Under the pieces are notes generated by a model that was not told the origin of the DNA, ran no database searches, and worked only from the letters and a program-made list of their open reading frames with translations. Made by a program: the position numbers and the translations under genes. Source: Pseudolabrys sp. (GTDB lineage Bacteria; Pseudomonadota; Alphaproteobacteria; Rhizobiales; Xanthobacteraceae). Taken from it: DNA of 64,000 bases. Shown here piece after piece: positions 10,576-31,278 of this stretch; position 1 is the stretch's first letter, and each line of letters opens with the position of its first letter. The stretch lies in contig JAFIGS010000018.1 of assembly GCA_017849615.1 (NCBI GenBank), positions 1-64,000 on the forward strand, in the 5' to 3' direction.

Positions 10576-10630
10576 TTCCTGCCGACCTTCCGAAAGATTG
10601 GTGCGTTTGGGCCCGCCCGCAGGCGTCGCC

Positions 10631-11629
10631 TTACTGCATCGTGATGCTGCGTTTCCTGATGATGTCGGCCCATTGCGCGGTTTCACGCTCGATCCGCGCG
10701 GCGAGCGTCTGCGGCGGTTCGATCGACACCGCGAGGCCCTGCGCCTGCAGCTTGTCCTTCATCTCCGGCTGCTCGAGGACGTCTTTGGTCGCCGCGAACA
10801 ATGCCTCAATCGTGCCCGCGGGCACCGCCTTCGGCGCCAGCATGCCGTACCACGACGTGACGTCGATGCCTTCAACGCCGGCTTCCGCCAGCGTCGGCAC
10901 CTCGGGCGCCTGCGCGCTGCGTGCGGCCGTAGTCATCGCAAGCGGCACCACTGTCTTCTCGTTGATGTTGCCGAGCACCGCAGGAAGATTGGTCGCCAGC
11001 ACGTCGATATGGCCGCCGAGCAGATCGGTCAGCGCCTGCGACGAGCCGCGGTAGGGCACGTGCGTCAGGTTCGCGCCTGTCTTTTCCTTGAAGAGCTCCA
11101 TGGCGAGATGCAACTGGCTGCCGACGCCGGGGCTGCCATAGGTCAGCTTGGCGGTTTTGGCCTTGTCGATCAGTTCCTTGATCGACGTAACGCCGAGCAT
11201 CTTCGACGCGACGAAGACATTCGGCGCACTGGCGAGCAACGCAACAGGCGCGAAGTCCCGCAGCACGTCCATGCGCATGTCCGGCATCAAGGTCGGGTTG
11301 ATGGTGAGGTTGCCGGCGGGAATGACGAGCAAGGTCGTGCCATCGGGCGTAGCCTTGCGAACGTAGTCGATGCCGATGTTGCCGGCGCCGCCGGTCTTGT
11401 TCTCGACAATGGCGGCGACGCCGGAGCGCGCCTGATATTCCTGCGCCAGCAACCGCGCCAGCACGTCGATCGGTCCGCCGGCGGTAAACGGCGCCACCAG
11501 CGTCATCTGGCTTTTGGGGAAGCCGGAAGGCACGCCCGCCGCGAACGCCATGCGCGGCGCGGCGGCGGCCGAGGCGAGGAGCGTCAGAGCGGTTCGGCGC
11601 GTGAGGCCCGCCGACGTCCCGGCTTTCAT
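10631..11629 (-). CDS. tripartite tricarboxylate transporter-type (Bug family) periplasmic binding protein
   Basis: A 332-residue protein. It starts MKAGTSAGLTRRTALTLLAS, a twin-arginine-like signal peptide. The mature part is typical of Bug/TctC binding proteins: MTLVAPFTAGGPIDVLARLLA, ENKTGGAGNIGIDYVRKATPDG, then LTYGSPGVGSQLHLAMELFK and HVPYRGSSQALTDLLGGHID. These proteins capture small carboxylates in the periplasm. Its ATG overlaps the Rieske stop codon by one base, so it ends the long leftward operon. No TctA/TctB membrane subunits are present, a common situation for Bug proteins; it may feed another transporter or act as a sensor. Confidence 0.88.
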   Translation of the reverse strand: MKAGTSAGLTRRTALTLLASAAAAPRMAFAAGVPSGFPKSQMTLVAPFTAGGPIDVLARLLAQEYQARSGVAAIVENKTGGAGNIGIDYVRKATPDGTTLLVIPAGNLTINPTLMPDMRMDVLRDFAPVALLASAPNVFVASKMLGVTSIKELIDKAKTAKLTYGSPGVGSQLHLAMELFKEKTGANLTHVPYRGSSQALTDLLGGHIDVLATNLPAVLGNINEKTVVPLAMTTAARSAQAPEVPTLAEAGVEGIDVTSWYGMLAPKAVPAGTIEALFAATKDVLEQPEMKDKLQAQGLAVSIEPPQTLAARIERETAQWADIIRKRSITMQ

Positions 11630-12711
11630 CACATCTTTCCCGCGGCCTGGAGGTCGGCCAGCTGCTGGCGCGCCTGCTGCGCCAGATAGCGGCGCAGGCG
11701 GATCACGCCGGCATCGTGCTGGTACAGCATTTCGAACTTCTCGAGGCCCGGCTTGAGCCCGTCCAGCATCTCGCGATCCTGCTCGAGCACGTGCCAGTGG
11801 CGTTTCTCGAGATTGGTCTTGTACAGGAAGCGCCAGGTGTCGCGCTGCCAGCCGGACACCTTGCGGGTGCGCCAGAAGAACACGCACATGCGGTCTTCGT
11901 CGATCGGCGTGCCGAAACCGGTGATACCGAAATTGCCGCCCGGGCCGCCCGACGGCGGGTAGGGGATTTCGAGGCGCACATAAAGCGCGCCGTTATCCAC
12001 GAGTTCGCTCCAGTCGAAATTCACATCGCGCTGGCCGCTCTTCTCGAAGAAGAAGCCATGGTCGGTGTCGCGCGTGACGAAATGCGCCTGGGTGTCGCCC
12101 TGATACATCGTGTGCGAATTGGCATGCAGGAACGTGCCATGCATGGGATCCATCAGGTTGTCGAAGGCGTAGCGCCACGGCATTTCCCAGTCGGCGTAGC
12201 AGAGGAAGCTCGAATAGTCCGGCGCCGAGATTTCCGCCGGCGGCTCGAAAGCGCCGGCTTCTTCATGCAGTGCGTCGCCGAACCAGACGAAGATCGCGCC
12301 GGAGATTTCGCGGCTCGGATAGGTCTTCACCGCCTTCTTGCCTTCGAGCGGGCAGCCCGGCTGTCCGGGCACGCTCAGCACCTTGCCGTCGGGTCCGACT
12401 TCGACGCCATGATAATTGCAGCGCAGGCGATCGCCCTCGTTGATGCCGCGCGACAGCGGCACGGCGCGGTGCGGGCAGCGGTCGGCCTGCACATGGATTT
12501 CGCCGCGGGAGTCGCGCCACAGCACCAGCTTTTCGCCGAGGCGCATGATGCCGAGCGGCTTGCCGCCGGTCTCGACGAAGCGCGAGGGAAGCACGGCCCA
12601 CCAGCGATTGCGCAGACCGGTGCGCAGATATTGCTGGACCTGCTGATCGGTCGGGCCGGCCGGCGGCGTGGTGGAAGCCGGCTTGCGAGTATCAAGAGCG
12701 GTGACTGACAT
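11629..12711 (-). CDS. Rieske non-heme iron oxygenase, catalytic subunit (phthalate-dioxygenase type)
   Basis: A 360-residue oxygenase. The Rieske [2Fe-2S] ligands are C79-x-H81 and C98-x2-H101 (CPHRAVPLSRG...CNYHG). The mononuclear-iron site is DNLMDPMHGTFLH, giving His191 and His196 with the bridging Asp188. The size and architecture match single-component oxygenases that hydroxylate or O-demethylate aromatic acids using a PDR/VanB-type reductase. The reductase gene lies just upstream, separated only by a 75-codon gene. The substrate cannot be assigned from the sequence. Confidence 0.92.
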   Translation of the reverse strand: MSVTALDTRKPASTTPPAGPTDQQVQQYLRTGLRNRWWAVLPSRFVETGGKPLGIMRLGEKLVLWRDSRGEIHVQADRCPHRAVPLSRGINEGDRLRCNYHGVEVGPDGKVLSVPGQPGCPLEGKKAVKTYPSREISGAIFVWFGDALHEEAGAFEPPAEISAPDYSSFLCYADWEMPWRYAFDNLMDPMHGTFLHANSHTMYQGDTQAHFVTRDTDHGFFFEKSGQRDVNFDWSELVDNGALYVRLEIPYPPSGGPGGNFGITGFGTPIDEDRMCVFFWRTRKVSGWQRDTWRFLYKTNLEKRHWHVLEQDREMLDGLKPGLEKFEMLYQHDAGVIRLRRYLAQQARQQLADLQAAGKM

Positions 12712-12714
12712 GGC

Positions 12715-12942
12715 TCAGGCTCCCAGTTCGCGCATCAGCGTGGTGAATTTCTCTTCGGTCCAGTCGCCGCCGTCGAGCGGCCGGACGCGCGTCTTGTTCA
12801 TGCCGGCGACGACCTCATCGAGCTCGCGCGCTCCTTTGGTGAACACGCTCTCGATGGCGTTGGCGAGTTCCTGCTGCCAGGCGGTCGGCTCGGCCGTGCG
12901 GCTCTGGTGCGGGTCGAGATACGGGTAACGATAGTCAGGCAT
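12715..12942 (-). CDS. 75-residue protein between oxygenase and reductase, possible helix-turn-helix
   Basis: It sits 3 bases upstream of the Rieske gene and 12 bases downstream of the reductase, on the same strand. Sequence features: aromatic N-terminus MPDYRYPYLDPHQSR, then two predicted helices (WQQELANAIESVFTKGAREL and DEVVAGMNKT) and a short DGGDWTEEKFTTLMRELGA end. The second half resembles the recombinase-like helix-turn-helix fold seen in small proteins annotated beside Rieske oxygenases, which I recall only loosely. It may be an accessory or regulatory subunit. Confidence 0.7.
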   Translation of the reverse strand: MPDYRYPYLDPHQSRTAEPTAWQQELANAIESVFTKGARELDEVVAGMNKTRVRPLDGGDWTEEKFTTLMRELGA

Positions 12943-12954
12943 CGCATACCTCCT

Positions 12955-13950
12955 TCAGATATCGAGCACGAGCCGCGCGCCCTTGGCGCGCGACACGCAG
13001 GTCATCATGGTCTGGTTGGCGGCGCGCTCGGACGACGACAGGATGCTGTCGCGGTGGTCGGCTTCGCCTTCGATGATGCGGCACTCGCAGGTGCCGCAAA
13101 TGCCCTGTTCGCAGGAGCGCGGCACGTCGATGCCGGCTTCCGTCATGACTTCGAGAATCGATTTTTCGGGCGGCACGCTCAGCGTGATGCCGGAGACCGC
13201 GCACACCACCTCGAAGGCGCCGCTCACTTGGTCGCTCGGGCGCGAGCGCGGCGCGAACCATTCGAAATGCACCGTGCCTTCCGGCCAGCCGGCGGTGACT
13301 TCCTCGACGGCCAGCATCAGCTTCTCGGGGCCGCAGCAATAAACCACGGTGTCAGCCTGCGGCGTCGTCAGTCGCTGCGCGACGTCGAGCCGGGTGCCGG
13401 CTTCGCTCGCATGCAGCGACAAGGTGCCGCCCAGTGCCTCGATTTCCTTCAGGAACGGCGCGTCTTCGTTGCGCTTGTTGCAATAGAGCAGGGTCCACGA
13501 CCCCTTCCTGGCGCTCAATTCCCGCATCATCGGGATGAAGGGCGTGACGCCGATGCCGCCGGCGACAAAGATGTAGTCCTTGGATGCGACCAGCGGAAAA
13601 TTGTTGCGCGGTGTCGAGACGGTCAGGACGTCGCCGGGACGCAGCCGGCGATGCACGAAGCCTGACGATTGCCCGCCGGTGACGGCACGGATGCCGAGGC
13701 GATAATGCGACAGATCATTCGGATCGCCGCACAGCGAATACTGCCGCAAGGTGCCGTCGGGCAGTTTGACGTCGATATGCGCGCCGGGCTCGAAGGCGGG
13801 CAGCGGCTTGCCGTCGAGCGACGCGAGCTCCAGCGACAGCACGCCCGGCGCTTCCCAGATCAGGGCGCGCAGACGCACGTCGAAGGTCTGCTCGCCGGGA
13901 CGCGGCGCGGCGACCGTCTGCGGTTTGGTCATTTCAGCGGCTTCGCCCAT
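12955..13950 (-). CDS. PDR/VanB-type oxidoreductase (FMN, NAD(P)H, [2Fe-2S]) for the Rieske oxygenase
   Basis: A 331-residue three-domain reductase. The flavin-binding motif RQYSLCG is at residues 69-75, the nicotinamide domain has GGIGVTP at 131-137 and CCGPEKLM near 205-212, and the C-terminal plant-type ferredoxin holds the cluster ligands C280, C285, C288 and C318 (CEQGICGTC...C). It passes electrons from NAD(P)H to a partner oxygenase, here most likely the Rieske protein two genes downstream. Two starts are possible, 13950 and 13932 (MTKPQ). Confidence 0.93.
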   Translation of the reverse strand: MGEAAEMTKPQTVAAPRPGEQTFDVRLRALIWEAPGVLSLELASLDGKPLPAFEPGAHIDVKLPDGTLRQYSLCGDPNDLSHYRLGIRAVTGGQSSGFVHRRLRPGDVLTVSTPRNNFPLVASKDYIFVAGGIGVTPFIPMMRELSARKGSWTLLYCNKRNEDAPFLKEIEALGGTLSLHASEAGTRLDVAQRLTTPQADTVVYCCGPEKLMLAVEEVTAGWPEGTVHFEWFAPRSRPSDQVSGAFEVVCAVSGITLSVPPEKSILEVMTEAGIDVPRSCEQGICGTCECRIIEGEADHRDSILSSSERAANQTMMTCVSRAKGARLVLDI

Positions 13951-13960
13951 GACTCATTCC

Positions 13961-15451
13961 TTACAGCGCACTTTTGGCCCAGGGGTGCGGCGCCTGGGAG
14001 AGGTCGCAGTAAATGGATTTTTGCGCCATCCAGGCGCGGATGCCGTCGCGGCCCTTTTCCCGGCCGAGGCCGGAATCCTTGGTGCCGCCGAACGGCGTCG
14101 AGATCGAGAACTGCTTGTAGGTGTTGATCCACACCGTGCCGGTGTCGAGTGCCCGGCCGATGCGCCAGGCTTTCGGGAAATCGCGCGTATAGACGCCGGA
14201 GGCAAGGCCGTAGTCGTTGTCGTTCGACTGACGGATAAGATCGTCCTCGTTGTCGAAGGGCAACACGGCGAGCACCGGCCCGAACACCTCGTCGCGGCAT
14301 AGCCGCGAGTCATTGCCGAGACCGGCGATGATGGTCGGACGATAATAGGTGCCGTCCTTGTAGTCGCTGCCGGACGGGCGTTCGCCGCCGGTGAGTATCT
14401 TGCCGCCGTCGGCGCGCGCCTTGGCGACATGGTCCTCGATCTCGTCGCGATGCTTCGGCCGGATCAGCGGCGCGACCTGGGTCGTTGCCTCGAACGGATG
14501 GCCGACCTTGAGCCGCTCGGTCGCGGCGACAAGCTTGGCGACGAAGGCATCGTAAATGCCGCGTTCGACGAACAGCCGCGAGCCGGCGATGCAAGATTGC
14601 CCGGTCGAGGAGAAGATGCCGAACATCACGCCGGCCACGGCGAGGTCGAGATCGACGTCGGCGAACACGATGGTCGGCGACTTGCCGCCGAGTTCGAGCG
14701 ACACCGGCATCAGCTTGTCGGCCGCCTTGCGGGCGATGTCGCGGCCGGTCGCGGTGCCGCCGGTGAACGACACCTTCTTGATCGCCTTGTGCGTGACAAT
14801 GCGCTCGCCGACGATCGAGCCTGCGCCGGGCAAGGTCGAGAACAGGCCCTTCGGCAGACCGGCTTCCTCGATGACGCGCGCGAGTTCGAGGCAGACCAGC
14901 GGGCTCCACGACGACGGTTTGAGCAGGATGGCGTTGCCGGCGGCGAGCGCCGGGGCGACCTTCTGGGCGTCCGACGCGATCGGCGAATTCCACGGCGTGA
15001 TGCCGGCGGTGACCCCGAGCGGCTCATACACCGATAAGGTGAGATAATTGCCGCGTGACGGGGTGAGGGCGTCTTCCATCGTCTCCAGCGCCGCCGCCAT
15101 GTAGCGGAAGGTGCCGGAGGCGCTCATGGCCAGCGCGCGGGTCTCGGTCAGGGTCTTGCCGGTGTCGCGCGACTGCACATGCGAGATGCGATCGGCATGG
15201 CGAGCAATGCCCTCCGAGATTTTGTAGAGATAGCTCGCGCGCTCGTGCGGCAGGAGCTTGCGCCAGGCCGGGTCGTTGACCGCATCCTGCGCGCGCTCGA
15301 TGGCGAGATCGACATCTTCCACCGAAGCGCCCGGCAGGGTGGCGTTGTGCAAGCCGTCGGCTGGAAAGTTAGAGGTGATGTCGGCGCCGCGGCCGCGCCG
15401 CCATTCGCCGCCGATATAGAGCTTGTCCTGGAAGGTGACTTTCTGGTCCAT
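13961..15451 (-). CDS. NAD(P)-dependent aldehyde dehydrogenase
   Basis: A 496-residue enzyme of the usual ALDH length. Motifs: PWN with N155, the cofactor-binding Lys178, catalytic base E253 in SLELGGKSP, and catalytic Cys287 in GQSCIAG. It oxidises an aldehyde to the carboxylic acid. The sequence is closest in style to betaine/aromatic aldehyde dehydrogenases, but the substrate is not determinable. It lies 10 bases before the reductase gene and 8 bases after the aspartate-dehydrogenase-like gene. It probably oxidises an aldehyde produced by the ThDP enzyme of the same operon; that is inference. Confidence 0.93.
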   Translation of the reverse strand: MDQKVTFQDKLYIGGEWRRGRGADITSNFPADGLHNATLPGASVEDVDLAIERAQDAVNDPAWRKLLPHERASYLYKISEGIARHADRISHVQSRDTGKTLTETRALAMSASGTFRYMAAALETMEDALTPSRGNYLTLSVYEPLGVTAGITPWNSPIASDAQKVAPALAAGNAILLKPSSWSPLVCLELARVIEEAGLPKGLFSTLPGAGSIVGERIVTHKAIKKVSFTGGTATGRDIARKAADKLMPVSLELGGKSPTIVFADVDLDLAVAGVMFGIFSSTGQSCIAGSRLFVERGIYDAFVAKLVAATERLKVGHPFEATTQVAPLIRPKHRDEIEDHVAKARADGGKILTGGERPSGSDYKDGTYYRPTIIAGLGNDSRLCRDEVFGPVLAVLPFDNEDDLIRQSNDNDYGLASGVYTRDFPKAWRIGRALDTGTVWINTYKQFSISTPFGGTKDSGLGREKGRDGIRAWMAQKSIYCDLSQAPHPWAKSAL

Positions 15452-15459
15452 GGTCCCTC

Positions 15460-16302
15460 TCAGATCGCCACCGCGCCGACGCGGTTGATCAACTCGCGCG
15501 CCATGCTGTAGCCGGCGAGCTGCGAGGTTTTCGGATTGGAAGCCGATGGGCGGCCTTCGAGTCGCACCGAGAAATCGCCGCAGCCCGAGCGCACCGCGAA
15601 TTCGTGAACGTTGCGGGTGACGCCCGGATCGGCGACCAGACGCACCTTGGTCGCGTCGAGCCCGATGCCGGCGATCGCCAGCGTGGCGGCGACATTGGCG
15701 TTGAACGGGTAGGTCTGCGCCGCGTCGCGCGCCGAGCCTTCGAAGAAGACCGCCGCGTCCTTGAGCGTGTCGAGATCGAGCAGCTTCTCCGCCGGCGTGC
15801 CCTTCCAGGCCTTGGGCGGCTTGCGCCCGGTGTAAATGACCTCTTCGAGTCCGGACAATCTGGCCGAGGCCAACGCATCAATGCCGCCAACCGCACCGGC
15901 CGGCAAAACCAGCCGGCCGCCGCCGGATTTTGCCGCCGCTTCAAGTCTGCCGCGAATGGCGTCGTCGGCGAGCGAGCCGATGGAAATGACGATGAGATCG
16001 CAGCCGGCTTCGAGAACCGTCGCGCCGTAATCGCGCACCGCGACGTGGCCGGCGCATTCGGCGACAACATCGGGACGGTCGGCGAGCAGGGCCTTGAGGT
16101 CGGAGTGGACCGCAGTCGCGGCAGCGAGCGCAGGACCGCAACGCTCCAGCAAGACGCGGGCCTGCGGCGCGGCATCCGCGGGCACCAGGATGGCGACATG
16201 ATCGAGCGGCGCATCGAGCGCCTTGACGAGCGACGTCAGCGCCAATTCGGCAATGCCGCCAGCGCCGATCAACCCCAATCGCGTCATCTTCTTTGCCATC
16301 AT
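15460..16302 (-). CDS. aspartate dehydrogenase-like (NadX family) protein
   Basis: A 280-residue protein. The Rossmann motif GAGGIAE is at 13-19. The later parts AECAGHVAVRDYG, LVLPAGAVGGIDALASARL, YPFNANVAATLAIAGIGLD and VRLVADPGVTRNVHEF fit the aspartate dehydrogenase/NadX family, which interconverts L-aspartate and iminosuccinate/oxaloacetate with NAD(P). The start at 16302 gives the classic ATGA overlap with the stop of the ThDP gene. In a catabolic operon it may act on an amino-dicarboxylate or another amino acid rather than in NAD synthesis. Confidence 0.85.
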   Translation of the reverse strand: MMAKKMTRLGLIGAGGIAELALTSLVKALDAPLDHVAILVPADAAPQARVLLERCGPALAAATAVHSDLKALLADRPDVVAECAGHVAVRDYGATVLEAGCDLIVISIGSLADDAIRGRLEAAAKSGGGRLVLPAGAVGGIDALASARLSGLEEVIYTGRKPPKAWKGTPAEKLLDLDTLKDAAVFFEGSARDAAQTYPFNANVAATLAIAGIGLDATKVRLVADPGVTRNVHEFAVRSGCGDFSVRLEGRPSASNPKTSQLAGYSMARELINRVGAVAI

Positions 16303-17999
16303 GCTGTCTTCCCGGCGGCGCCTGCCGGCGGACCGGCAAAGCTCGCGCCAAACGGACCAATAGCGACCATGTCGACTTCGATGAGGCACGGACCGGGCGC
16401 GGCAAGGGCGCGATCGAGTATCGGCTCGAACGCGGCCATATCGGAGACGCGCACATGCGGCAGGCCGACCGCGGCGCAGAGCAGGGCAAAGTCCGGCGTC
16501 AGGATGTTGGAATAGACGTGGCGGCCGCCATATTGCGCATCCTGGATGTTGCGGATGACGCCATAGCCTTTGTCGTTCATCAGCACGAATACCATGTTGG
16601 CCTGCATCTCGACGGCGGTTGCGAGTTCGCCGATCATCAATTGCGCGCCGCCGTCGCCGATCAAGGCGATGGTCTTGGCCTTGACGCCGGCATGGGCGGC
16701 GCCGATCCCCATGGCGATGCCTTGGCCGATGCCGCCGCCCAGCGCGTGCACACCGAGATGCGGTGCGGCGAGGCGGACATAGCGGTTGCCGAAGGTGCTG
16801 TTCGAGATGGTGACGTCGCGCACCCACGGATGGCCGTTCTTTGACACGCGGGCGCTGAGCGCATCGGCGAGCGGCACGTAAGGTCCGAGCACCTTGTGCA
16901 GGGCCGCTTCGGAGCACTGGCGCGCCGCACCGATGTCCTTGAGGAAACCACCATCGGTATCGAGCTTGCCGGGCAGGCGGCTGAGCAAGCCTTCGAGCGC
17001 AAAACGGGCATCGCCGGCGATGAATTGCTCGACCGGGTAATTGCGGCCGCCCTGGCCGACATCGGCGTCGATCTGTACCAGCGGCGGCAGCGGCATGCGG
17101 TTGTTCTGCGTTTCGTTGCCGCGCAGGCGCGAGCCGACCACGATCATGAGATCGCACTTGGCGTAAATGCCGACGGCATCCGGCGTCATGTTGAAGGCGC
17201 CGAGGCTGCTGGCGTGATCTTCCGGCACCACGGCGCGGCCATTGGTCGAGGTGACGATGCCGAAGCCGCGATCGGCCAGAGCCGTTGCCGCCGTCGCGGC
17301 GCCGCGGGCGCCGCCGCCGAGCCACAGCATCGGACGTTTGGCGTTGCGCACCCGGTCCGCCAGCGCATCGAGCGCGGCATCGTCGGGCTTTCTCAAATCG
17401 ACGCTCGGCCAGCCTGAGACGGTGCGCTTGGCCGTCGGCAGCCGCTGCACGTCCACGGGGATTTCCAGCGACACCGGGCCGGTCGGCGCGGTCAGCGCGT
17501 CGCGGGTCGCCGCCAGCAGCGTCTCGACCGCGGCGCTCGGCTCCCAGATGCGGTGATAGGCCTTGCTCACCGCTTTCAGCATGTCGGGCTGTCGCGGCAC
17601 GTCGTGTATGGCGGCGCGGTCGCGGTCGGCGAATTCGCGGTCGATCTGGGTGGTGATGTGCAGCACCGGCGAACCGGCGGTCAGCGCTTCGACCTGCGAG
17701 CCGGCGGCATTGCCGGCGGCGGTGCCGGTCGAGGTGATGGCGACACCGAGGCTGCGCGATACGCGCGCATAGGCATCGGCCATGTTCATGGCGCCGGCTT
17801 CGCCGCGCGCCGGCACGAAGGTGATGCGGCCCTGGCGCGCAATGGCGTCGAGGATCGGCATGTTGTGGATCGAGATGACGCCGAACACCACGGTGACGCC
17901 CATGTCGGCGAGCGCGCGCGCGATGGCGTCGCCGACCGGCTCGGTCGTTACGGCGCTTTGTGAACTTAGTCGCTCGGTGACGACGATGGGAGCGTTCAT
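16299..17999 (-). CDS. thiamine-diphosphate-dependent enzyme (acetolactate synthase/benzoylformate decarboxylase superfamily)
   Basis: A 566-residue protein with the three ThDP-enzyme domains. The N-terminal pyrimidine-binding domain carries catalytic Glu67 in PARGEAGAMNMADAYAR. The middle domain is around 195-345. The C-terminal PP domain has the GDG...N motif at 448-475. It may decarboxylate a 2-keto acid or ligate/cleave a C-C bond; acetolactate synthase itself is unlikely because no small subunit is nearby and the context is catabolic. It is translationally coupled to the NadX-like gene. Confidence 0.88.
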   Translation of the reverse strand: MNAPIVVTERLSSQSAVTTEPVGDAIARALADMGVTVVFGVISIHNMPILDAIARQGRITFVPARGEAGAMNMADAYARVSRSLGVAITSTGTAAGNAAGSQVEALTAGSPVLHITTQIDREFADRDRAAIHDVPRQPDMLKAVSKAYHRIWEPSAAVETLLAATRDALTAPTGPVSLEIPVDVQRLPTAKRTVSGWPSVDLRKPDDAALDALADRVRNAKRPMLWLGGGARGAATAATALADRGFGIVTSTNGRAVVPEDHASSLGAFNMTPDAVGIYAKCDLMIVVGSRLRGNETQNNRMPLPPLVQIDADVGQGGRNYPVEQFIAGDARFALEGLLSRLPGKLDTDGGFLKDIGAARQCSEAALHKVLGPYVPLADALSARVSKNGHPWVRDVTISNSTFGNRYVRLAAPHLGVHALGGGIGQGIAMGIGAAHAGVKAKTIALIGDGGAQLMIGELATAVEMQANMVFVLMNDKGYGVIRNIQDAQYGGRHVYSNILTPDFALLCAAVGLPHVRVSDMAAFEPILDRALAAPGPCLIEVDMVAIGPFGASFAGPPAGAAGKTA

Positions 18000-18017
18000 G
18001 ACTCTATGACCCGGGCC

Positions 18018-18809: not shown

Positions 18810-18818
18810 CGTTGCCTC

Positions 18819-20484: not shown

Positions 20485-21356
20485 GGCTTAGTCGAGGGCG
20501 CGCCCGCCGCTTTCGGCAGATAGTGCAGGACGCGGCTTTCGATGGCGGTCACCGCCCAGTACATGGCGATGCCGATCACGGTAAGCAGGGCGATGGCGTC
20601 GAACACCATGGCGGTGTTGGCCTGGCCCTGGCCGAAGCTGATGAGATAGCCGAGGCCGATTTCACCGCCGACCAGTTCGCCGACGGTGATGCCGATCACC
20701 GCGAGCGTTGCGCCGATGCGCAGGCCAGCAAGCAAATTGGGCATCGAGAACGGCAGCATGATCTTGAAGAAGATCTTGGTCCTGCTCATGTTGTAGGCGC
20801 GCGCCAGGTTGACCAGATCGCGGTCCATGATGCGCATGGCCTGCAGCACGTTCACCAGGATCGGGAAGAACACCACGAGGATGGTGACGATCAGCTTGGG
20901 CCAGGCGTTATAGCCGAACCACAGAATGAACAGCGGCGCGAAGGCGACCTTCGGCGCGATCTGCAGCGCCAGGATGTATGGCGACAGCACCTTCTCCCAT
21001 GTTGGCAGCAGGCCGAGCGCGTAGCCGAACACGGCCCCGAGCAGGCCGCCGAGCACGAAGCCGACGATCGACATCGACGCCGTCGACATGAAGTGCTTGA
21101 GCAGATTCTCCTGATTCCAGAGACGGATCATCTCCAGATAGAGATCGCTGACGCGCGGGATGATGTATTTCGGCACCCCGAGCATCGGCGGCAGATATTG
21201 CCAGGCGATCAGCACGACGACGGCGACGGCGACGCTGGCCAGCGGCGCGCCATAGCTGGGCCGCCAGAGCCGCCCCCCGGAGGGGGCGAGCGCCGGGCGT
21301 TGCAGCGTTACGGTGCGATTGGCCGGTTTGCTCATCGCCGTCTCCGCGTATGTCAT
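20481..21356 (-). CDS. ABC transporter permease (NitT/TauT type)
   Basis: A 291-residue inner-membrane permease with about six helices. It contains the EAA-type cytoplasmic loop after IMDRDLVNLARAYNMSRTKI with the FFKIMLPFSMPNLLAGLRIG motif that docks on the ATPase. The start at 21356 makes an ATGA overlap with the binding-protein gene; a shorter start is at 21335. It forms an uptake system with the NMT1-like binding protein and the ATPase encoded beside it. Confidence 0.92.
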   Translation of the reverse strand: MTYAETAMSKPANRTVTLQRPALAPSGGRLWRPSYGAPLASVAVAVVVLIAWQYLPPMLGVPKYIIPRVSDLYLEMIRLWNQENLLKHFMSTASMSIVGFVLGGLLGAVFGYALGLLPTWEKVLSPYILALQIAPKVAFAPLFILWFGYNAWPKLIVTILVVFFPILVNVLQAMRIMDRDLVNLARAYNMSRTKIFFKIMLPFSMPNLLAGLRIGATLAVIGITVGELVGGEIGLGYLISFGQGQANTAMVFDAIALLTVIGIAMYWAVTAIESRVLHYLPKAAGAPSTKP

Positions 21357-22330
21357 GACACGAACTGGTTGGTGTAGAGATCTTCCACCGGCACGGCCGA
21401 CTGGATGATGTTGTTCTGGACGTAGAAGTCCTGAACCTGCTTGATCCGCTTCGGATCGAAGCTGCCGAGCGCCGACGCCGGCGTGGTGGCGTACACTTCC
21501 TTCACGTAGCGGTTCAGGATGGTTTCGATTTCCTTTTCCTTGCCGGTGTGCTGCGGCACCTGGGCGACGTAGTCCTTCGCCGCGGCGACCGGGTCGGCCA
21601 TGCTGTCGCGCATCGCCTGCAGCACGGCCTTGACGAAGCCGCCGACGGCCGCGGGACGCTCTTTGACCATCTTGTCCGAGGTGAGGATGGCCTGCGCCAT
21701 CGCCGGGAAGGTCTTTTCGATCGGGAAGTAATCGAGCGGCACGCCGCCGGTTTCGATTGCCACCGCCCATTCCGGCACGGCCATGATGCCGTCGAGCGAC
21801 TTGGCGATCATGAGCTGGGTCACGCCGGCGGGGCCGACCGCCTGGATCTGCAGTTCGTCGCGCTTGATGCCGTTGGCCGCGAGCACGGCGAGCAGGGCGT
21901 AGTAGCCGGTGTCCTGATAGCCGATGACGCCGAGCTTCTTGCCCTTGAGGTCGGCGAAGCCCTTCATGCCGACTTCCTTGCGGGTGACGAGCGTGAACAG
22001 CGGGTGCGAGCCGAGCTGCGCGACCGCGCGCACCGGCAGGCCGTTCGGCCGCACGATCATCGAGGTTTCGCCGAGGCCGCCGCCGATATCGGCATTGCCG
22101 GCACCGACCTGCTGGGCGACGTCGGCGCCGCCCTTGCCGGTCTGGAAGGTCACTTCGACATTGTTCTTCGCGTAGTAGCCGCGCTTGAGCGCAAGCTGGA
22201 ACGGCAGGAAGGCCGGCAGGAAGCTCGGCGCCGGGAACAGGTAGGTGATCTTTTCCGGCGCGGCAAAAGCCGGGCGGATGGCGGCGGTGGCAATGAGGCC
22301 GCCAAGTGCGGCGCGGCGCGTGATCTTCAT
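21353..22330 (-). CDS. ABC transporter substrate-binding protein (NMT1/THI5-like)
   Basis: A 325-residue periplasmic protein. The first 24 residues form a signal peptide with a twin Arg (MKITRRAALGGLIATAAIRP). The mature domain follows the SsuA/THI5 pattern: FQLALKRGYYAKNNVEVTFQ, then VGAGNADIGGGLGETSMIV and ADLKGKKLGVIGYQDTGYYA. Related proteins bind sulfonates, taurine, pyrimidines or aromatic acids. Given the neighbouring genes an aromatic or heteroaromatic acid is likely, which is inference. Confidence 0.9.
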   Translation of the reverse strand: MKITRRAALGGLIATAAIRPAFAAPEKITYLFPAPSFLPAFLPFQLALKRGYYAKNNVEVTFQTGKGGADVAQQVGAGNADIGGGLGETSMIVRPNGLPVRAVAQLGSHPLFTLVTRKEVGMKGFADLKGKKLGVIGYQDTGYYALLAVLAANGIKRDELQIQAVGPAGVTQLMIAKSLDGIMAVPEWAVAIETGGVPLDYFPIEKTFPAMAQAILTSDKMVKERPAAVGGFVKAVLQAMRDSMADPVAAAKDYVAQVPQHTGKEKEIETILNRYVKEVYATTPASALGSFDPKRIKQVQDFYVQNNIIQSAVPVEDLYTNQFVS

Positions 22331-22399
22331 GTCAGTGAACTCCCCTTGTGTTGACTGGATGACGTTTGGTGTTGTGCGGGCGATTGTCGTTGACGGCGC

Positions 22400-23194
22400 T
22401 CACGCATCTTCGCGCTCGCCGAGATGCAGGGCGTGGAACAGATGCTTGATGATTTCGCTGGCGCGCGGCGTGCCGGCGCGGGCGATCGGATTGTCGCGGT
22501 CGGGCAGGCCGACATTGATCTCTTCGACGATGCGGCCGGGGCCGTCGCTCATGACCAGAATGCGGTCCGACATTGCGACGGCTTCGGAGAGGTCGTGGGT
22601 GATGAGCAGGGTGGTGAGGTTCGACCCGGCGATGGTCGCGGCGAAGCTCTTCTGCAGCACCAGCTTGGTCTGCGCATCGAGCGCCGAGAACGGCTCGTCG
22701 AGCAGCACCACATCGGGATTGATGGCGAGCGTGCGGGCGAGCGCCGCGCGCTGCCGCTGGCCGCCGGAGATCTGGTAGGGATAGCGATCGGCGAATTCGG
22801 TCAGGCGGCAACGCTTGAGTTCGCGCATGGCGCGCTCGCGGCGCTCGGCCGCCGGCATGTCGCGCGCTTCGAGGCCGAACTCCACATTGTGCAGGACCGT
22901 GCGCCAGGGCAGCAGCAAGTCCTTCTGCAACATGAAGCCGACATGCGAACTCGGGCCCGCGACCTCGACGCCATGCAGAGAAACAGTGCCTTCGCTGGGT
23001 TGGTCGAGACCGGCGACGAGATTGAGCAGGGTGCTCTTGCCGCAACCCGACGGTCCGACGACCGAGACAAACTCACCTTCCCCGACATTAAAGGACAAAT
23101 CGCGGACGGCCGTGAACGGCGGCGCACCCGCGGACCGACCGGGGAAGCGGCGTGCCACATCGCGCAGTTGAAGAACGGTCGAGGTCACAGTCAC
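22400..23194 (-). CDS. ABC transporter ATPase (NitT/TauT type)
   Basis: A 264-residue ATPase. Walker A GPSGCGKST is at residues 47-55, Q-loop near Q90, signature SGGQRQRAALA from 143, and Walker B VVLLDEP at 162-168. It is the first gene of the leftward arm and energises the permease and binding protein that follow after a 69-base gap. Its upstream region carries the two GTTCA-N4-TGAAC palindromes. Confidence 0.94.
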   Translation of the reverse strand: MTVTSTVLQLRDVARRFPGRSAGAPPFTAVRDLSFNVGEGEFVSVVGPSGCGKSTLLNLVAGLDQPSEGTVSLHGVEVAGPSSHVGFMLQKDLLLPWRTVLHNVEFGLEARDMPAAERRERAMRELKRCRLTEFADRYPYQISGGQRQRAALARTLAINPDVVLLDEPFSALDAQTKLVLQKSFAATIAGSNLTTLLITHDLSEAVAMSDRILVMSDGPGRIVEEINVGLPDRDNPIARAGTPRASEIIKHLFHALHLGEREDA

Positions 23195-23213
23195 CTAGCG
23201 TTCACTCCGATTT

Positions 23214-23227
23214 GTTCAAATATGAAC
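23214..23227. promoter_or_regulatory. perfect 14-bp palindrome GTTCA-N4-TGAAC, site 1
   Basis: GTTCA AATA TGAAC, 20 bases upstream of the ATPase start on the divergent intergenic segment. It is a candidate operator for one of the two IclR regulators flanking it in the locus. Confidence 0.6.
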
Positions 23228-23249
23228 TTGTCGTTCGTACTTTAAACAA

Positions 23250-23263
23250 GTTCACACCTGAAC
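23250..23263. promoter_or_regulatory. perfect 14-bp palindrome GTTCA-N4-TGAAC, site 2
   Basis: GTTCA CACC TGAAC. Its centre is 36 bases from that of site 1. Same arms, different spacer, which suggests selection on the arms rather than a chance duplication. Confidence 0.6.
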
Positions 23264-23481
23264 GCGGAGCGAGTCAATCCGCGCGATGATCGAAATTTCA
23301 TCGTGCAATGCACCATTTGTTTGCACTGCGGCGCGACAGCACAGGGGATTTTGGCTGTTCTATCTCTCGTTGGCGACGCGGCTGGACGGTCTTTTTAAAC
23401 TGCCTGCAATTTCCGCTTTCCAAAAAATAGTTTTATCTGGTATACGATGTTTAATTAGCGCAACAAATTGAATGGCGCGCG

Positions 23482-24357
23482 ATGGCCAGGAACGAGACTT
23501 CGCCCGAGAATTCAACGCTCAGTGCCGCCTCGGGCGTGCCGAGCGACGAGCGCTACCTCGTGCCGGCGCTCATTCGCGGTCTGACGATTCTTCAGCGCCT
23601 GTCGGGCGAGACTCGCGGTCTCACCTTGTCGGAAGTCGCAGCGGCGCTAGGCGTCACGCGGTCCTCGGCCTACCGGCTGCTGTTCACGCTCGGCCACATG
23701 GGCTTTGTCGTCTTCGACGCCGACACCAAGACCTACGCGCTGGGTCCGGAAGTCCTCCGCCTCGGCTATGGCTACCTGGCATCGCGCGATCTGGTCGAAG
23801 TCGCGACGCCGCATCTCGTGCGTCTGCGTGACCGCACCGGCTGGTCGGCTCATCTCGGGGAACTGCAGGGGCGCGACGTGGTTTATCTCGCCCGCGTCGC
23901 CACGCGGCGCTCGATCGCCAGCACCGTTCATGTCGGCACCCGGCTGCCGGCGCGCGCGACCACGATGGGACGCATTCTGCTGTCGGGCCTGAGCTCCGAC
24001 GAAGTGCGCGATCTCTATCGCGACCAGCCCTATTCCGGCGAAGCCGGGCAGGGCAGCCTCGCCGATCTCGATGCCCAGCTCGCCACCGATCGCGCCAATG
24101 GCGTGGTCGTGCAGGTTTCGGGCTACGAGCCCGGCGTTGCCAGCGTCGCGGCGCCCGTGCGCGACACCAGTGGCCAGATCATCGCCGCCATCAACATCTC
24201 GGCTGTCGCCTTGCTGACCACCGAAACGGATCTGCAAGGCCCGCTCACCGCGGAAGTCGTGGCGACGGCGCAAGCTATTTCACGTGACCTCGGCTTCAAG
24301 GCCGTGGGCGAAGTGGATGGTGCCGGAGGGACGCAGGCGCGTCATTCGGCACGTTGA
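23482..24357 (+). CDS. IclR-family transcriptional regulator opening the rightward arm
   Basis: A 291-residue regulator. After about 25 flexible residues comes the winged HTH (ALIRGLTILQRLSGETRGLT, then EVAAALGVTRSSAYRLLFTL) and the effector domain (YLARVATRRSIASTVHVGTR, LPARATTMGRILLSGL, GVASVAAPVRDTSGQIIAAI). It is divergent from the ATPase gene across a 287-base spacer that holds two palindromes. It is similar in layout to the other IclR at 18819 but clearly a different sequence, so the two may sense different metabolites. Confidence 0.93.
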   Translation: MARNETSPENSTLSAASGVPSDERYLVPALIRGLTILQRLSGETRGLTLSEVAAALGVTRSSAYRLLFTLGHMGFVVFDADTKTYALGPEVLRLGYGYLASRDLVEVATPHLVRLRDRTGWSAHLGELQGRDVVYLARVATRRSIASTVHVGTRLPARATTMGRILLSGLSSDEVRDLYRDQPYSGEAGQGSLADLDAQLATDRANGVVVQVSGYEPGVASVAAPVRDTSGQIIAAINISAVALLTTETDLQGPLTAEVVATAQAISRDLGFKAVGEVDGAGGTQARHSAR

Positions 24358-24399
24358 AGACCAGCGAACAGTAAACCCGGCATACCAAGGAGTTGAAAC

Positions 24400-24924
24400 A
24401 TGGATGATGTGACCCGTCGGTCCTGGGACCGCCCCGAAGGCGCAAGCTTCGAAGACTGGATGAAGAGCCGCGTCGCCCGCGTCTCGGACCGCGCCTATGA
24501 CTGGAACGCGCTCAAGTTCCAGGCCGATTTCGATCCGAAGTATCGTCGCGCGCAGAAGCGCTTCATCGGCACCGGCGGCACGGGCGTCGCGAAGGACACG
24601 AATGTGATCCCGGCCGAGCATTTCACGCTGTCGAACATGATCATTCCCGCCGGCGGCGAAGGCCCGATGCATCTGCACACCGATGCCGAGGAAGTCTTCT
24701 TCGTGCTGCGGGGCAAGATCAAGGTCATGGTCGAGAAGGACGGCGAGTATTTCGAGACCATCCTCAATGAGCGCGATTGCGTCTCGGTGCCGCCCGGCGT
24801 TTATCGCGGCGAAATCAACATCGGCGAGGAAGACGCGATCATGATGGTGATGATCGGTTCGCCCAAGCCGGTGACGCCGACCTATCCGCCGGATCATCCG
24901 CTCGCCAAGGTCAAGCGCGGCTGA
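24400..24924 (+). CDS. cupin-domain protein
   Basis: A 174-residue protein with one cupin barrel (about 70-150). The metal-binding motif 1 is GPMHLHTDAEEVFFVLRGKI, giving His91, His93 and Glu97/98. Motif 2 is around VSVPPGVYRGEINIGEEDA, where the usual His is replaced (Tyr-Arg). Cupins of this size include dioxygenases, isomerases and ligand-binding proteins. An AAGGAG sits upstream of the start. In this operon it may act on a ring-cleavage intermediate. Confidence 0.85.
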   Translation: MDDVTRRSWDRPEGASFEDWMKSRVARVSDRAYDWNALKFQADFDPKYRRAQKRFIGTGGTGVAKDTNVIPAEHFTLSNMIIPAGGEGPMHLHTDAEEVFFVLRGKIKVMVEKDGEYFETILNERDCVSVPPGVYRGEINIGEEDAIMMVMIGSPKPVTPTYPPDHPLAKVKRG

Positions 24925-25021
24925 GGTCGCATGACGGCTCCAGCGGCCGCCGCTCATGCGGTGGCGGCCGCTTCTGACTTGTTGCTGTATCCGGTCCGGC
25001 CGGGACGAGGGAGTTTATGAC

Positions 25022-25972
25022 ATGTCGCTAATGGGCATCGATGCCGTTGTTTTTGGCGTTGAGGATATGGCGGAAGCCAAGCGCTTCCTCGCCGACTGGG
25101 GGCTGACCGAGGTCAGCGCCGATGCCGGCAAAATCGTTTATCGCACCCGGGACGGCGCCGAAGCCATCGCCCGTCCGATCGATGCGGCCGATCTGCCGCC
25201 GGCGATCGAAGGCGGCAAGACGGTGCGCGAAGTGGTCTGGGGCGCGGCCAGCCAGGCGGAACTCGACGAGACCTTGTCGCGGCTGAAATCGCTGCCGAGC
25301 TACAAGGTCGGCGCCGACGGCCTGCCGCGCGTCACCGATCCGAACGGCATGAGTCTCGCCTTCCGGGTGACCAAGCGGACGCCGCTCAAGGTCGAGCCGA
25401 CCTTGCCCAACGCGCCGGGCTCGCATAACCGCGTCAACAAGCGCTCGCCGATCCACGACCAGGCGCATCCGATCAATATCGGCCATGTCGTCCTGTTCGC
25501 CAACGACTTCGCCGCCATGCGCGCCTTCTATACCGAGAAGATGGGCTTCTCGATCAGCGACGAATATCCCGGACACGGCGTCTTTATGCGCTGCCAGAAG
25601 ATCGGCGACCACCACAATACATTTGTCCTCAACCGCCCCGGCAAACCCGGCATCAACCACGTTGCTTTCACCGTCACTGACATTCACGAACTGATCGGCG
25701 GCGGCATCGCCATGGCGAAGAAGGGCTGGAAGACGGAAATCGGTCCGGGCCGTCATCCGATCTCGTCCGCTTACTTCTGGTACTTCGAGAATCCGCTCGC
25801 GGCGCCGCTCGAATATTACGCCGACGAAGACTTCTGCGGCGAAGGCTGGAAGCCGAGCACTTTCGAGCGCAAGCCGGAACTGTTCGCCGAATGGGCCATC
25901 GTCGGCGGCATCGACGGCACGACGCGCCGGCAGGCTTCGGGCATCGACAAAAGCGGCCGTGGACACGCGTGA
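25022..25972 (+). CDS. extradiol ring-cleavage dioxygenase (VOC superfamily, two domains)
   Basis: A 316-residue protein with two glyoxalase/VOC modules. The N-terminal one (about 5-118) is degenerate. The C-terminal one (about 148-270) holds a full class I extradiol active site: iron ligands His155, His213 and Glu264, and likely acid-base residues His198, His245 and Tyr254. The spacings His213-His245-Tyr254-Glu264 closely match the BphC pattern (210-241-250-260). It should cleave a catechol-like ring next to one hydroxyl, using Fe(II) and O2. It follows the cupin gene by 97 bases. Confidence 0.88.
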   Translation: MSLMGIDAVVFGVEDMAEAKRFLADWGLTEVSADAGKIVYRTRDGAEAIARPIDAADLPPAIEGGKTVREVVWGAASQAELDETLSRLKSLPSYKVGADGLPRVTDPNGMSLAFRVTKRTPLKVEPTLPNAPGSHNRVNKRSPIHDQAHPINIGHVVLFANDFAAMRAFYTEKMGFSISDEYPGHGVFMRCQKIGDHHNTFVLNRPGKPGINHVAFTVTDIHELIGGGIAMAKKGWKTEIGPGRHPISSAYFWYFENPLAAPLEYYADEDFCGEGWKPSTFERKPELFAEWAIVGGIDGTTRRQASGIDKSGRGHA

Positions 25973-25980
25973 GGGCTGAC

Positions 25981-26346
25981 ATGCGTCCCGATCTGCGGCG
26001 CATCGTGGCGGTGGAAGCGCATCGGCGGCGGTCCGGGCGCATTCCCTCGCGCGTCCATTCGCTCGGCACCGGCGAGACATTCGCCATAGAGCCGGCGCCG
26101 GATGGATTCATCGATGTCGAAACCGGTATGACCATCCGCAGCCGCGGCAGCGCCATCGTCTTGCCGGACGGATCGGAGCCGGTCGAACTGACGCTGATCG
26201 GCGACATTCTGTTTGAAGGTATCGAACGCCCCGGCGGCGAACCGTTCTTCGGCCGCGCCGGCGGCGGATCGTCGGTCACGCTCTACGACCGGGCGCAGAA
26301 CGACTACTTCCAATACGCCCTTGGCACCGAAGAAGATCGCATTTGA
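25981..26346 (+). CDS. protein of unknown function in the catabolic operon
   Basis: A 121-residue protein starting MRPDLRRIVAVEAHRRRSGR. It lies 8 bases after the dioxygenase and 8 bases before the SDR start. The sequence suggests a small beta-rich fold (ETFAIEPAPDGFIDVETGMT, SAIVLPDGSEPVELTLIGDI) with a Gly-rich turn (GRAGGGSSVTLYD). No signal, membrane segment or known motif is seen. It could be an accessory or regulatory protein of the pathway. No homologous family is recognised. Confidence 0.7.
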   Translation: MRPDLRRIVAVEAHRRRSGRIPSRVHSLGTGETFAIEPAPDGFIDVETGMTIRSRGSAIVLPDGSEPVELTLIGDILFEGIERPGGEPFFGRAGGGSSVTLYDRAQNDYFQYALGTEEDRI

Positions 26347-26354
26347 GTGAGCCC

Positions 26355-27107
26355 ATGACACAGCGCTTTGCCGGCAAACGGATCGTGGTGACAGGGGCGG
26401 GGCGGGGCCTCGGCTTTGCCTTTGCCGAGCGGCTGGCCCGCGAAGGTGCGAGCGTCATCATCGCCGAGATCGACCCGGTGACCGGTGCCGAAGCCGAGAA
26501 AAAGCTGCGTGACGCGGGCCTTGCCGCGCGCTTCGTCCAGACCGATATCGCTTCGGAAGCGTCGGTCGCGGCGATGGCGCAGGAAGCCGCGCGGGATTGC
26601 GACGGTATCCACGGCCTCGTCGCCAATGCCGCGCTGGCCAACAATGTTGGCGGCAAGACCTTCGACGAAATCACGGTCGAGACCTGGGACCGTCTCATGG
26701 CCATCAATGTCCGTGGCACCTGGCTGACGGTGCGGGCCATCGGGCCGCTGATGAAGAACGGCGGCTCCATCGTCACGCTTTCATCGGACACGATCTACTG
26801 GGGGCCGCCGCGGCTCCTGCACTATGTCACCAGTAAATCGGCGATCGTCGGCATGACGCGCTCGCTGGCGCGGGAATTCGGCGAGCGCATGATCCGCGTC
26901 AACTGCCTGCTGCCGGGCCTGACCATGGGCGAGGCGACCAAGGACATTCCACAGACGCGCTGGGCCGACTATGCCGAGCGCACTATCCTCAAACGCACGC
27001 AGCAGCCGGACGATCTCGACGGCGTCGTGGCGTTTCTGATGTCGGACGATTCGAAATTCATCACTGCCCAGACGCTGGCCGTCGATGGCGGTTTCTCGAT
27101 GCATTGA
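26355..27107 (+). CDS. short-chain dehydrogenase/reductase
   Basis: A 250-residue classical SDR. Cofactor motif TGAGRGLG near residues 14-21, structural NAALAN in the NNAG position, catalytic Ser in LSSDTIYWGPPRLLHYVTSK with Tyr and Lys in YVTSK. NAD(P)-dependent oxidation of a hydroxyl, or the reverse, is expected. The ATG at 26355 is preferred; a TTG at 26343 would overlap the preceding stop. It is canonical, unlike the SDR at 18018. Confidence 0.92.
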   Translation: MTQRFAGKRIVVTGAGRGLGFAFAERLAREGASVIIAEIDPVTGAEAEKKLRDAGLAARFVQTDIASEASVAAMAQEAARDCDGIHGLVANAALANNVGGKTFDEITVETWDRLMAINVRGTWLTVRAIGPLMKNGGSIVTLSSDTIYWGPPRLLHYVTSKSAIVGMTRSLAREFGERMIRVNCLLPGLTMGEATKDIPQTRWADYAERTILKRTQQPDDLDGVVAFLMSDDSKFITAQTLAVDGGFSMH

Positions 27108-27116
27108 GGGGGATTC

Positions 27117-28244
27117 ATGAAGATAGGCATCAACGGCGGCGGCATCGGCGGTTTGGCGGCGGCGATCGCGTTGCGTCAGGCCGGTCATGAGGTCGAGGTG
27201 TACGAGCAGGCCTCGGACTACAGGCGCGTCGGCGCCGACATCAATCTGACGCCCAACGCGGTCGCGGCGCTCAAGAGCCTGGGCGTATTCGACGACCTGC
27301 AGGAGACCGCGGCGCGGCCGAGCCATCGTATCAGCCGGACCTGGGACACGGGCGAGGAGACCTCGCGCCTCGAGATGGCGAATGCTGCTGAAGAGAAATA
27401 CGGCGCGCCGCAGCTCACCATTCACCGCGCCGATCTGTTGCAGGCGCTGCGCCGGCAGTTGCCGGACGATGTCATCAAGCTCGGCTATCGCATCGAGGCG
27501 CTTGATCTGAACAGCGAGCGACCTTCGGTTCGTTTCGCCAATGGCGAGACGCGTACGGTGGACGCGCTGGTCGGCGCCGACGGCATCCACTCGCCGACGC
27601 GCACGGCGATGTTCGGACCGGAGCATCCGCAATTCACCGGGCTGGTGTCCTATCGGGCCGTGGTCGATCGCAGTAAGCTCAATGTGCCGAACCTCGATGC
27701 CTTCACCAAATGGTGGGGGCCGACGCCCGATCTGCAGATCGTGACTTTTCCGCTCAACCGCGGCCGCGAGACCTTCATCTTCGCGACGACGGCGCAGGAC
27801 GACTGGCGTCACGAATCCTGGACCATGGAGGGCGATGTCGAGGAACTGCGCCGCGCCTATGCCGGCTTCCATCCCGAAGCGCGCGCCTTGCTCGACGCCT
27901 GCGACAGCGTGACCAAATCCGCGCTCTACATTCGCGAACCGTTGCCGCAATGGTCGCTCGGCAGAACGACGTTGCTGGGGGATGCCTGTCATCCGATGGT
28001 GCCGTTCATGGCGCAGGGCGCCTGCATGGCGATCGAGGACGCGGTCGTACTCGGCCGCGCCCTACGCGGCGTCACCGAAGCCGGTGTTGCCGATGCCTTC
28101 AAGCGCTACGAGAACGCACGCAAGGAGCGCACCGCCAAGGTGCAGATCGGCTCGCGCGGCAATGAATGGCTCAAGCAGGGCGGCAACGCCGACTGGGTCT
28201 ATGGCTATTCCGCCAGCACGGTCGCGCTCGACGCGGTCGCCTGA
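27117..28244 (+). CDS. class A FAD-dependent aromatic monooxygenase (6-hydroxynicotinate 3-monooxygenase-like)
   Basis: A 375-residue flavoprotein. It shows GGGIGG at residues 7-12 with the ribose-binding Glu30, the DG motif VGADGIHS (155-156) and the GD motif LLGDACHP (288-289). Long stretches match NicC in style (TKWWGPTPDL, MAQGACMAIEDA, then ADWVYGYS near the end). NicC active-site positions differ: the His of GIHIGPN is Asn here (DINLTPN), so the substrate is probably not 6-hydroxynicotinate itself. It likely hydroxylates an aromatic or heteroaromatic acid, perhaps with decarboxylation, to give the diol cleaved by the dioxygenase. Confidence 0.9.
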   Translation: MKIGINGGGIGGLAAAIALRQAGHEVEVYEQASDYRRVGADINLTPNAVAALKSLGVFDDLQETAARPSHRISRTWDTGEETSRLEMANAAEEKYGAPQLTIHRADLLQALRRQLPDDVIKLGYRIEALDLNSERPSVRFANGETRTVDALVGADGIHSPTRTAMFGPEHPQFTGLVSYRAVVDRSKLNVPNLDAFTKWWGPTPDLQIVTFPLNRGRETFIFATTAQDDWRHESWTMEGDVEELRRAYAGFHPEARALLDACDSVTKSALYIREPLPQWSLGRTTLLGDACHPMVPFMAQGACMAIEDAVVLGRALRGVTEAGVADAFKRYENARKERTAKVQIGSRGNEWLKQGGNADWVYGYSASTVALDAVA

Positions 28245-28256
28245 CCGCTGCCGTTG

Positions 28257-31274: not shown

Positions 31275-31278
31275 GGCG

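Follow-up and report, generated by a model that had tools for sequence, protein, structure and literature searches.

A patchily held, divergent gene block in Pseudolabrys sp. that probably serves kynurenate catabolism

Here we describe a gene block of Pseudolabrys sp. (Alphaproteobacteria, Rhizobiales, Xanthobacteraceae; assembly GCA_017849615.1) that we propose as a locus for the catabolism of kynurenate. It lies in the first 64,000 nucleotides of contig JAFIGS010000018.1, a stretch that we refer to as the window. Eighteen genes are arranged in two divergent arms, flanked on one side by a tRNA-Tyr gene (10491-10575) and on the other by an alpha-amylase-family gene (28557-31352) that we read as treY. 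The leftward arm starts at 23194 and runs, in the reverse of the order listed below, from an ATP-binding cassette (ABC) ATPase to a TctC-type binding protein, while the rightward arm starts at 23482 and runs in the listed order from an IclR regulator to an FAD monooxygenase. The features are as follows.

10631-11629, minus strand: TctC-type periplasmic binding protein (PF03401, E = 5e-57); TctC homologues also occur in some related clusters
11629-12711, minus strand: Rieske oxygenase alpha subunit, VanA/DdmC-like (PF00355, PF19112), proposed kynurenate 7,8-dioxygenase; homologues in related clusters have about 47-58% identity
12955-13950, minus strand: Rieske reductase with FAD, NAD and 2Fe-2S domains (PF00970, PF00175, PF00111)
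13961-15451, minus strand: aldehyde dehydrogenase (ALDH; PF00171, E = 3e-160), related to BADH and HpaE and under the cut-offs of those families; proposed to oxidise a formylethyl side chain
15460-16302, minus strand: L-aspartate dehydrogenase (AspDH) of the NadX family (NF009828, NF009827), start inferred from the reading frame; proposed iminosuccinate reduction
16299-17999, minus strand: thiamine diphosphate (ThDP)-dependent enzyme (NF005470), proposed 2-oxo-acid decarboxylase
18018-18809, minus strand: short-chain dehydrogenase/reductase 1 (SDR1; NF005468), proposed reductase of the ring-cleavage product
18819-19658, minus strand: IclR regulator 2 (PF01614, PF09339)
19651-20484, minus strand: alpha/beta hydrolase, PcaD-like (PF00561; best solved relative 2xua), proposed to hydrolyse a C-C or lactam bond in the pyridine half
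20481-21356, minus strand: ABC permease (PF00528), start inferred
21353-22330, minus strand: ABC substrate-binding protein, NMT1/SsuA-like (PF09084)
22400-23194, minus strand: ABC ATPase (PF00005)
23214-23227 and 23250-23263, no strand, between the arms: two GTTCA-N4-TGAAC palindromes, candidate IclR operator
23482-24357, plus strand: IclR regulator 1 (PF01614, PF09339)
24400-24924, plus strand: single-domain cupin (PF07883), proposed pyridine-ring opening or hydration step
25022-25972, plus strand: VOC extradiol dioxygenase (PF00903, TIGR02295 relative), proposed 7,8-dihydroxykynurenate 8,8a-dioxygenase
25981-26346, plus strand: conserved 121-amino-acid protein between VOC and SDR2, with no Pfam or NCBIfam match
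26343-27107, plus strand: SDR2 (PF13561), proposed dihydrodiol dehydrogenase
27117-28244, plus strand: FAD monooxygenase, NicC/tropone-monooxygenase-like (PF01494), optional ring hydroxylase

Several adjacent genes overlap by a few bases, as expected of operons. Three of the enzymes, namely the ThDP enzyme, SDR1 and AspDH, exceed the curated cut-offs of the NCBIfam families given with them. A preliminary description of the locus had named ABC uptake, a Rieske oxygenase with its reductase, an FAD monooxygenase, an extradiol dioxygenase, a cupin, a hydrolase, two SDRs, ALDH, a ThDP enzyme, an aspartate dehydrogenase and two IclR regulators. Family searches recovered every one of these, with the Rieske gene at 11629-12711; the TctC-type gene and the 121-amino-acid protein had been left out.

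Alignments add some detail for individual proteins. In the VOC dioxygenase the residues H155, H213, E264, H245 and Y254 are invariant in all five aligned sequences, and we take their roles to be those of their counterparts in homoprotocatechuate dioxygenase. The cupin retains H91, H93, E97, E98 and R136 in 33 of 33 sequences; Arg136 occupies the position that is usually a histidine in motif 2 of cupins. The structure model of this cupin had a predicted local distance difference test score (pLDDT) of 70 and was not used. AspDH aligns with 2dc1 and 1j5p across the N-H and NPKTS motifs and is, to judge from that alignment, a typical NadX-family member. The 121-amino-acid protein has matches in 14 of the 106 loci searched, its own included, and its confident, mostly beta model (pLDDT 87) found no convincing match in the PDB, with a best E-value of 0.11.

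The FAD monooxygenase has 6-hydroxynicotinate 3-monooxygenase (NicC, 5eow) as its best solved relative, with an E-value of 3e-79. The earlier label of 'NicC-like' is sound by sequence only, as the residue aligned with the active-site His47 of NicC is an asparagine. The nicotinate (nic) pathway was considered and rejected: apart from the asparagine, the block proteins gave no family match to NicA, NicB, NicX, NicF or NicE, and the hydrolase was not compared with NicD.

The palindrome GTTCA-N4-TGAAC has just two matches in the 64 kb, where 0.02 would be expected, and both lie between the arms. It is found once in the same intergenic region of all nine related loci checked, among which L033 and L128 are apparently the same contig and L027 and L028 are near-identical. 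On a wider scale it was seen in 14 of 179 loci (16 sites), the other 165, including most clusters of other lineages, having none. Two of the other sites stand immediately upstream of genes, one of them the cupin gene of a Vibrio plasmid cluster and the other an FAD monooxygenase gene in Caballeronia. We regard the palindromes between the arms as a candidate IclR operator. A Bradyrhizobium locus (L029, 5803-10507) also has two such sites and holds a major facilitator superfamily transporter, AspDH, IclR, hydrolase and cupin genes only; its substrate may differ.

Sharp edges and a spotty occurrence mark the block as a separate unit that only some genomes carry. A genome of the same genus that is assembled as a single contig (G004; loci L124 and L125) retains both flanks, the rRNA methylase/tRNA-Tyr side and the treY side; homology extends to 10575 and resumes at 28666, and about 11 kb of other DNA replaces 10576-28665. 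The same genome carries the cluster about 1.2 Mb away in the chromosome, 93-98% identical in the eight proteins covered. The dioxygenase is present in 9 of 36 genomes of the genus and, at a stricter cut-off, in 2 of 297 genomes sampled across the order, with its own genome counted in both. No exact match of 12 bases or more to the end of the tRNA-Tyr gene was found at the right edge (28150-28800 searched). Plasmid-borne copies were also seen. Caballeronia sp. NK8 (L022, L178) has the cluster on two different plasmids, one copy being edged by an IS21 element, with a second set of ferredoxin, helix-turn-helix (HTH) and Rieske genes downstream. A conjugative plasmid of Vibrio nigripulchritudo (L176, 13950-21929) carries the cupin, hydrolase, VOC, SDR, ThDP (annotated in two pieces), AspDH and ALDH genes, with no Rieske gene listed in an incomplete gene table.

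The preliminary description had suggested looking for this gene set in other genomes, and most of it does recur across the alpha-, beta- and gammaproteobacteria. A scan of public genomes with the cupin confirmed at least 543 relatives, from which 80 named loci were kept. Partner counts, here and below, are for the 62 of these that span at least 20 kb and are among the matches listed, at identity thresholds fixed after a first look at related loci. The 18 shorter loci were dropped; one of them, L063, spans cupin to VOC and has no AspDH match. Apart from one small protein, every member of the block has counterparts in genera such as Pseudomonas, Herbaspirillum and Cupriavidus, for the most part in one run. 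All eight scored partners stand beside the cupin in 43 of the 62 full-length loci, and the hydrolase and AspDH are near it in 62 of 62. Records from Klebsiella, Acinetobacter, Caballeronia and Novosphingobium hold most of the set, several of them with a three-component Rieske system and an HTH_62 small protein; there was no close FAD monooxygenase in L020-L023 and no SDR2 in Novosphingobium. In Caballeronia sp. M1242 (L177, 10329-10745) a gene of the RidA family of imine/enamine deaminases, which fits imine chemistry, sits between the Rieske and reductase genes. The Acinetobacter genes A1S_0954 and A1S_0956-0958, tags that we place in the cluster from their names and order, show 2.2- to 3.7-fold induction by mucin in one published listing.

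Some loci depart from the single run. In 7 of the 62 loci the hydrolase and AspDH are the only ones of the eight partners beside the cupin. Three of these, two from Pigmentiphaga and one from Delftia, were traced further, and in each the IclR, SDR1, ThDP, ALDH, VOC, Rieske and reductase genes form a second run elsewhere in the same genome. SDR2 belongs to the second run in Delftia, and neither Pigmentiphaga run showed it. These split loci point to an upper module made up of the Rieske, reductase, VOC, SDR1, ThDP and ALDH genes, in most cases with SDR2, and to a lower module made up of the cupin, hydrolase and AspDH genes; the two are intermixed across the arms of the window. Could the arms instead be independent pathways, adjacent by chance? 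Each arm does have one IclR gene, and the set does fall into two modules in some genomes. However, the natural split ignores the arms, since the lower module has its cupin on one arm and its hydrolase and AspDH on the opposite one; in other genomes a single run takes in genes from both arms; and operator-like sites lie between the arms. We consider such independence highly improbable, and the initial view of the arms as one coupled catabolic system is borne out.

Kynurenate is 4-hydroxyquinoline-2-carboxylate. Its classical breakdown in Pseudomonas extracts is credited to Hayaishi, Taniuchi and Dagley (EC 1.14.99.2, 1.3.1.18 and 1.13.11.10). Reportedly it passes through the 7,8-dihydrodiol and 7,8-dihydroxykynurenate, followed by 8,8a cleavage, reduction, decarboxylation and oxidation to 5-(2-carboxyethyl)-4,6-dihydroxypicolinate. 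To our knowledge the enzymes have EC numbers without genes; 7,8-dihydro-7,8-dihydroxykynurenate has an entry as a KEGG compound. The block encodes, at family level, a ring dioxygenase with its reductase, a dihydrodiol dehydrogenase and an extradiol dioxygenase, together with a pair of 2-oxo-acid decarboxylase (NF005470) and aldehyde dehydrogenase (PF00171). Here a dihydroxylating Rieske system, an SDR and an extradiol dioxygenase would be followed by a decarboxylase and ALDH, where a hydratase and an aldolase are usual; this is the order of the kynurenate route in Pseudomonas. At family level the enzyme classes fit every classical step, with a matching gene family each for dihydroxylation, dehydrogenation, extradiol cleavage, decarboxylation and aldehyde oxidation; where the proposal departs from the classical pathway is in giving the lower steps to the cupin, hydrolase and AspDH. 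We consider it probable that the block enables the cell to take up kynurenate and to degrade it completely, by the 'quinoline' branch of tryptophan catabolism. The first view, that the locus has no assignable substrate, is not supported, and the suggestion of a nitrogen-containing, carboxylated aromatic compound agrees well with kynurenate.

The proposed reactions and their order are predictions from enzyme families. The Rieske oxygenase and reductase would convert kynurenate to the 7,8-dihydrodiol, which SDR2 would oxidise to 7,8-dihydroxykynurenate. The VOC enzyme would then cut the 8,8a bond to give a 4,6-dihydroxypicolinate that bears an oxo-propenyl-carboxylate side chain. This side chain may be reduced by SDR1 or by a different reductase, after which the ThDP enzyme would decarboxylate the 2-oxo acid and ALDH would oxidise the resulting aldehyde. 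As N1, the C2 carboxyl, C3 and C4 of kynurenate make up the skeleton of aspartate, ring opening and cleavage of the C4-C4a bond would give iminosuccinate, the substrate of AspDH, and a C5 diacid. The lower module, with possible help from the FAD monooxygenase in clusters that have one, could accordingly open the pyridine ring to yield iminosuccinate and a C5 dicarboxylate, and AspDH would reduce the former to L-aspartate. More tentatively, and with a little more doubt than confidence, we propose that these are the first genes assigned to the kynurenate pathway and that their lower half, comprising a cupin with an invariant arginine, an alpha/beta hydrolase and AspDH, opens the pyridine ring by a route not described before, in which the ring nitrogen is recovered directly in the form of aspartate. 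Pseudomonas extracts are described as converting kynurenate to glutamate, alanine and acetate (Hayaishi 1961, listed among the references of PMC5770815 and PMC10845093); the alanine could derive from aspartate.

Two other kinds of substrate deserve consideration. The same pathway logic may act on xanthurenate, quinaldate or another 4-hydroxyquinoline-2-carboxylate, with the FAD monooxygenase making the catechol from 8-hydroxykynurenate without a Rieske enzyme. This monooxygenase is found in only 19 of the 62 full-length loci, and so may serve a variant substrate, and the Vibrio plasmid cluster lacks a Rieske gene in its incomplete table. Yet a Rieske homologue lies within the available stretch in 44 of the 62, and we judge a relative of kynurenate to be an unlikely substrate. 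For xanthurenate, kynurenine 3-hydroxylase would be needed. Less likely still is a generic meta-cleavage pathway for a monocyclic aromatic acid, along the lines of hydroxybenzoate or hydroxyphenylacetate, in which AspDH would serve some other purpose. The VOC and ALDH enzymes do resemble HpaD and HpaE, and the Rieske protein resembles demethylases, but the block has a 2-oxo-acid decarboxylase at the point where such a pathway should have a hydratase and an aldolase, and AspDH and the hydrolase accompany the cupin in every full-length locus. We know of no role for AspDH or such a hydrolase in monocyclic meta-cleavage pathways.

If the cluster degrades kynurenate, then genomes that make kynurenine, by tryptophan dioxygenase (TDO), and lack kynureninase (KynU) should have it. 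This prediction was reasoned out ahead of the scan and written down only later. Among 250 genomes from the family of Comamonas testosteroni, 24 have the VOC dioxygenase, 167 TDO and 162 KynU; the counts are without correction for phylogeny or genome size, and the p-values are single tests. The VOC dioxygenase was found in 7 of 9 genomes with TDO and without KynU, compared with 15 of 158 with both (Fisher p = 8e-6, uncorrected for kinship) and 2 of 83 without TDO, a pattern that meta-cleavage of a monocyclic acid does not predict. It is associated with TDO (p = 0.0055) and unrelated to KynU alone (p = 0.82). Clusters were fetched from five of the seven TDO-positive, KynU-negative genomes, and all five hold the cupin, hydrolase, AspDH, VOC, ThDP, ALDH and Rieske genes; the identities of their VOC proteins (55-89%) argue against a single clone.

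The surroundings of TDO are also of interest. In cluster-bearing genomes with TDO and without KynU, an aromatic amino-acid transaminase (NF006719) adjoins TDO in four of six TDO loci, three times with an arylformamidase, and two further genomes with the cluster have one TDO next to the transaminase and another with kynureninase. At a distance of up to 6 kb from TDO, the transaminase was found in 6 of 18 cluster-positive loci and in 0 of 24 controls (p = 0.0035), a test that covers 18 of the 22 cluster-positive TDO genomes and a non-random 24 of the 145 negatives, with L152, L153 and L155 being short contigs. KynU is near TDO in 19 of 23 KynU-positive controls. In some cluster-bearing genomes, then, tryptophan appears to be wired through kynurenine to kynurenate. 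L143 and L144 come from genomes with two TDO genes separated by a few kb, of which one is accompanied by kynureninase and the other by an aromatic aminotransferase.

A number of observations weigh against kynurenate as the substrate. The top solved relatives of the Rieske protein are phthalate, dicamba and carbazole oxygenases, with the quinoline enzyme last of 22, and two of the five fetched clusters (L139, L142) have no close SDR1 homologue. In 11 of 12 examined cluster-positive, KynU-positive loci KynU is near TDO as in ordinary genomes, so most of these could live without a kynurenate route. In the Pseudomonadaceae, where TDO alone was scanned, the association is weak: 4 of 16 genomes with the cluster have TDO, as do 20 of 232 without it (p = 0.056). 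None of the 4 cluster-positive or 16 control loci from this family has an aminotransferase beside TDO. No TDO, KynU, KynB or aminotransferase gene was seen in the cluster-holding loci among L001-L128. The window's own genome has no TDO and would therefore import kynurenate; two types of binding protein are present. P. aeruginosa may carry a similar gene run, and no paper naming two or more of six of its locus tags was found. This species accumulates kynurenate in culture (PMC4938989).

Other known pathways were compared with the block and rejected. The naringenin (fde) pathway of Herbaspirillum resembles it in having an FAD monooxygenase and an extradiol dioxygenase; it was considered, with PMC11303751 as the source, and dropped. 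The indole-3-acetate (iad) cluster of Variovorax shares a Rieske oxygenase (PMC10374108, in part), and an HTH_62 small protein stands beside the Rieske gene in some relatives of the window cluster. Among the window proteins, however, there is no match to HTH_62, the family of the IadE-like small subunit. The words aspartate, thiamine, cupin and aldehyde dehydrogenase are absent from the main text of PMC10374108, and iad is regulated by MarR (part of PMC11630574) whereas the window regulators are IclR proteins. The riboflavin/lumichrome (lum) operon has a ThDP heterocycle decarboxylase, a Rieske dioxygenase, an extradiol dioxygenase and a cupin hydratase, the last a precedent for such a role (PMC12746152, in part). 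It uses a P450, amidases and xanthine oxidase, and the terms 'aspartate' and 'aldehyde dehydrogenase' are absent from the accessible text of the same paper.

Our literature searches, which did not extend to subscription papers, found no paper assigning genes to the kynurenate pathway, and for microbial catabolism of kynurenate a 2018 review cites, in the part available, only work of the 1960s on Pseudomonas and Aerococcus (PMC5770815). The pathway has been known biochemically for sixty years, and the block is best read as its probable gene set. Kynurenate itself is a neuroactive and immunoactive metabolite of tryptophan. If the assignment is true, there would be genes for enzymes that are not known to have any, and the pathway could be found in any genome or microbiome and tested by deletion. 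It would also explain AspDH genes outside NAD synthesis, and would offer a new way of opening the pyridine ring.

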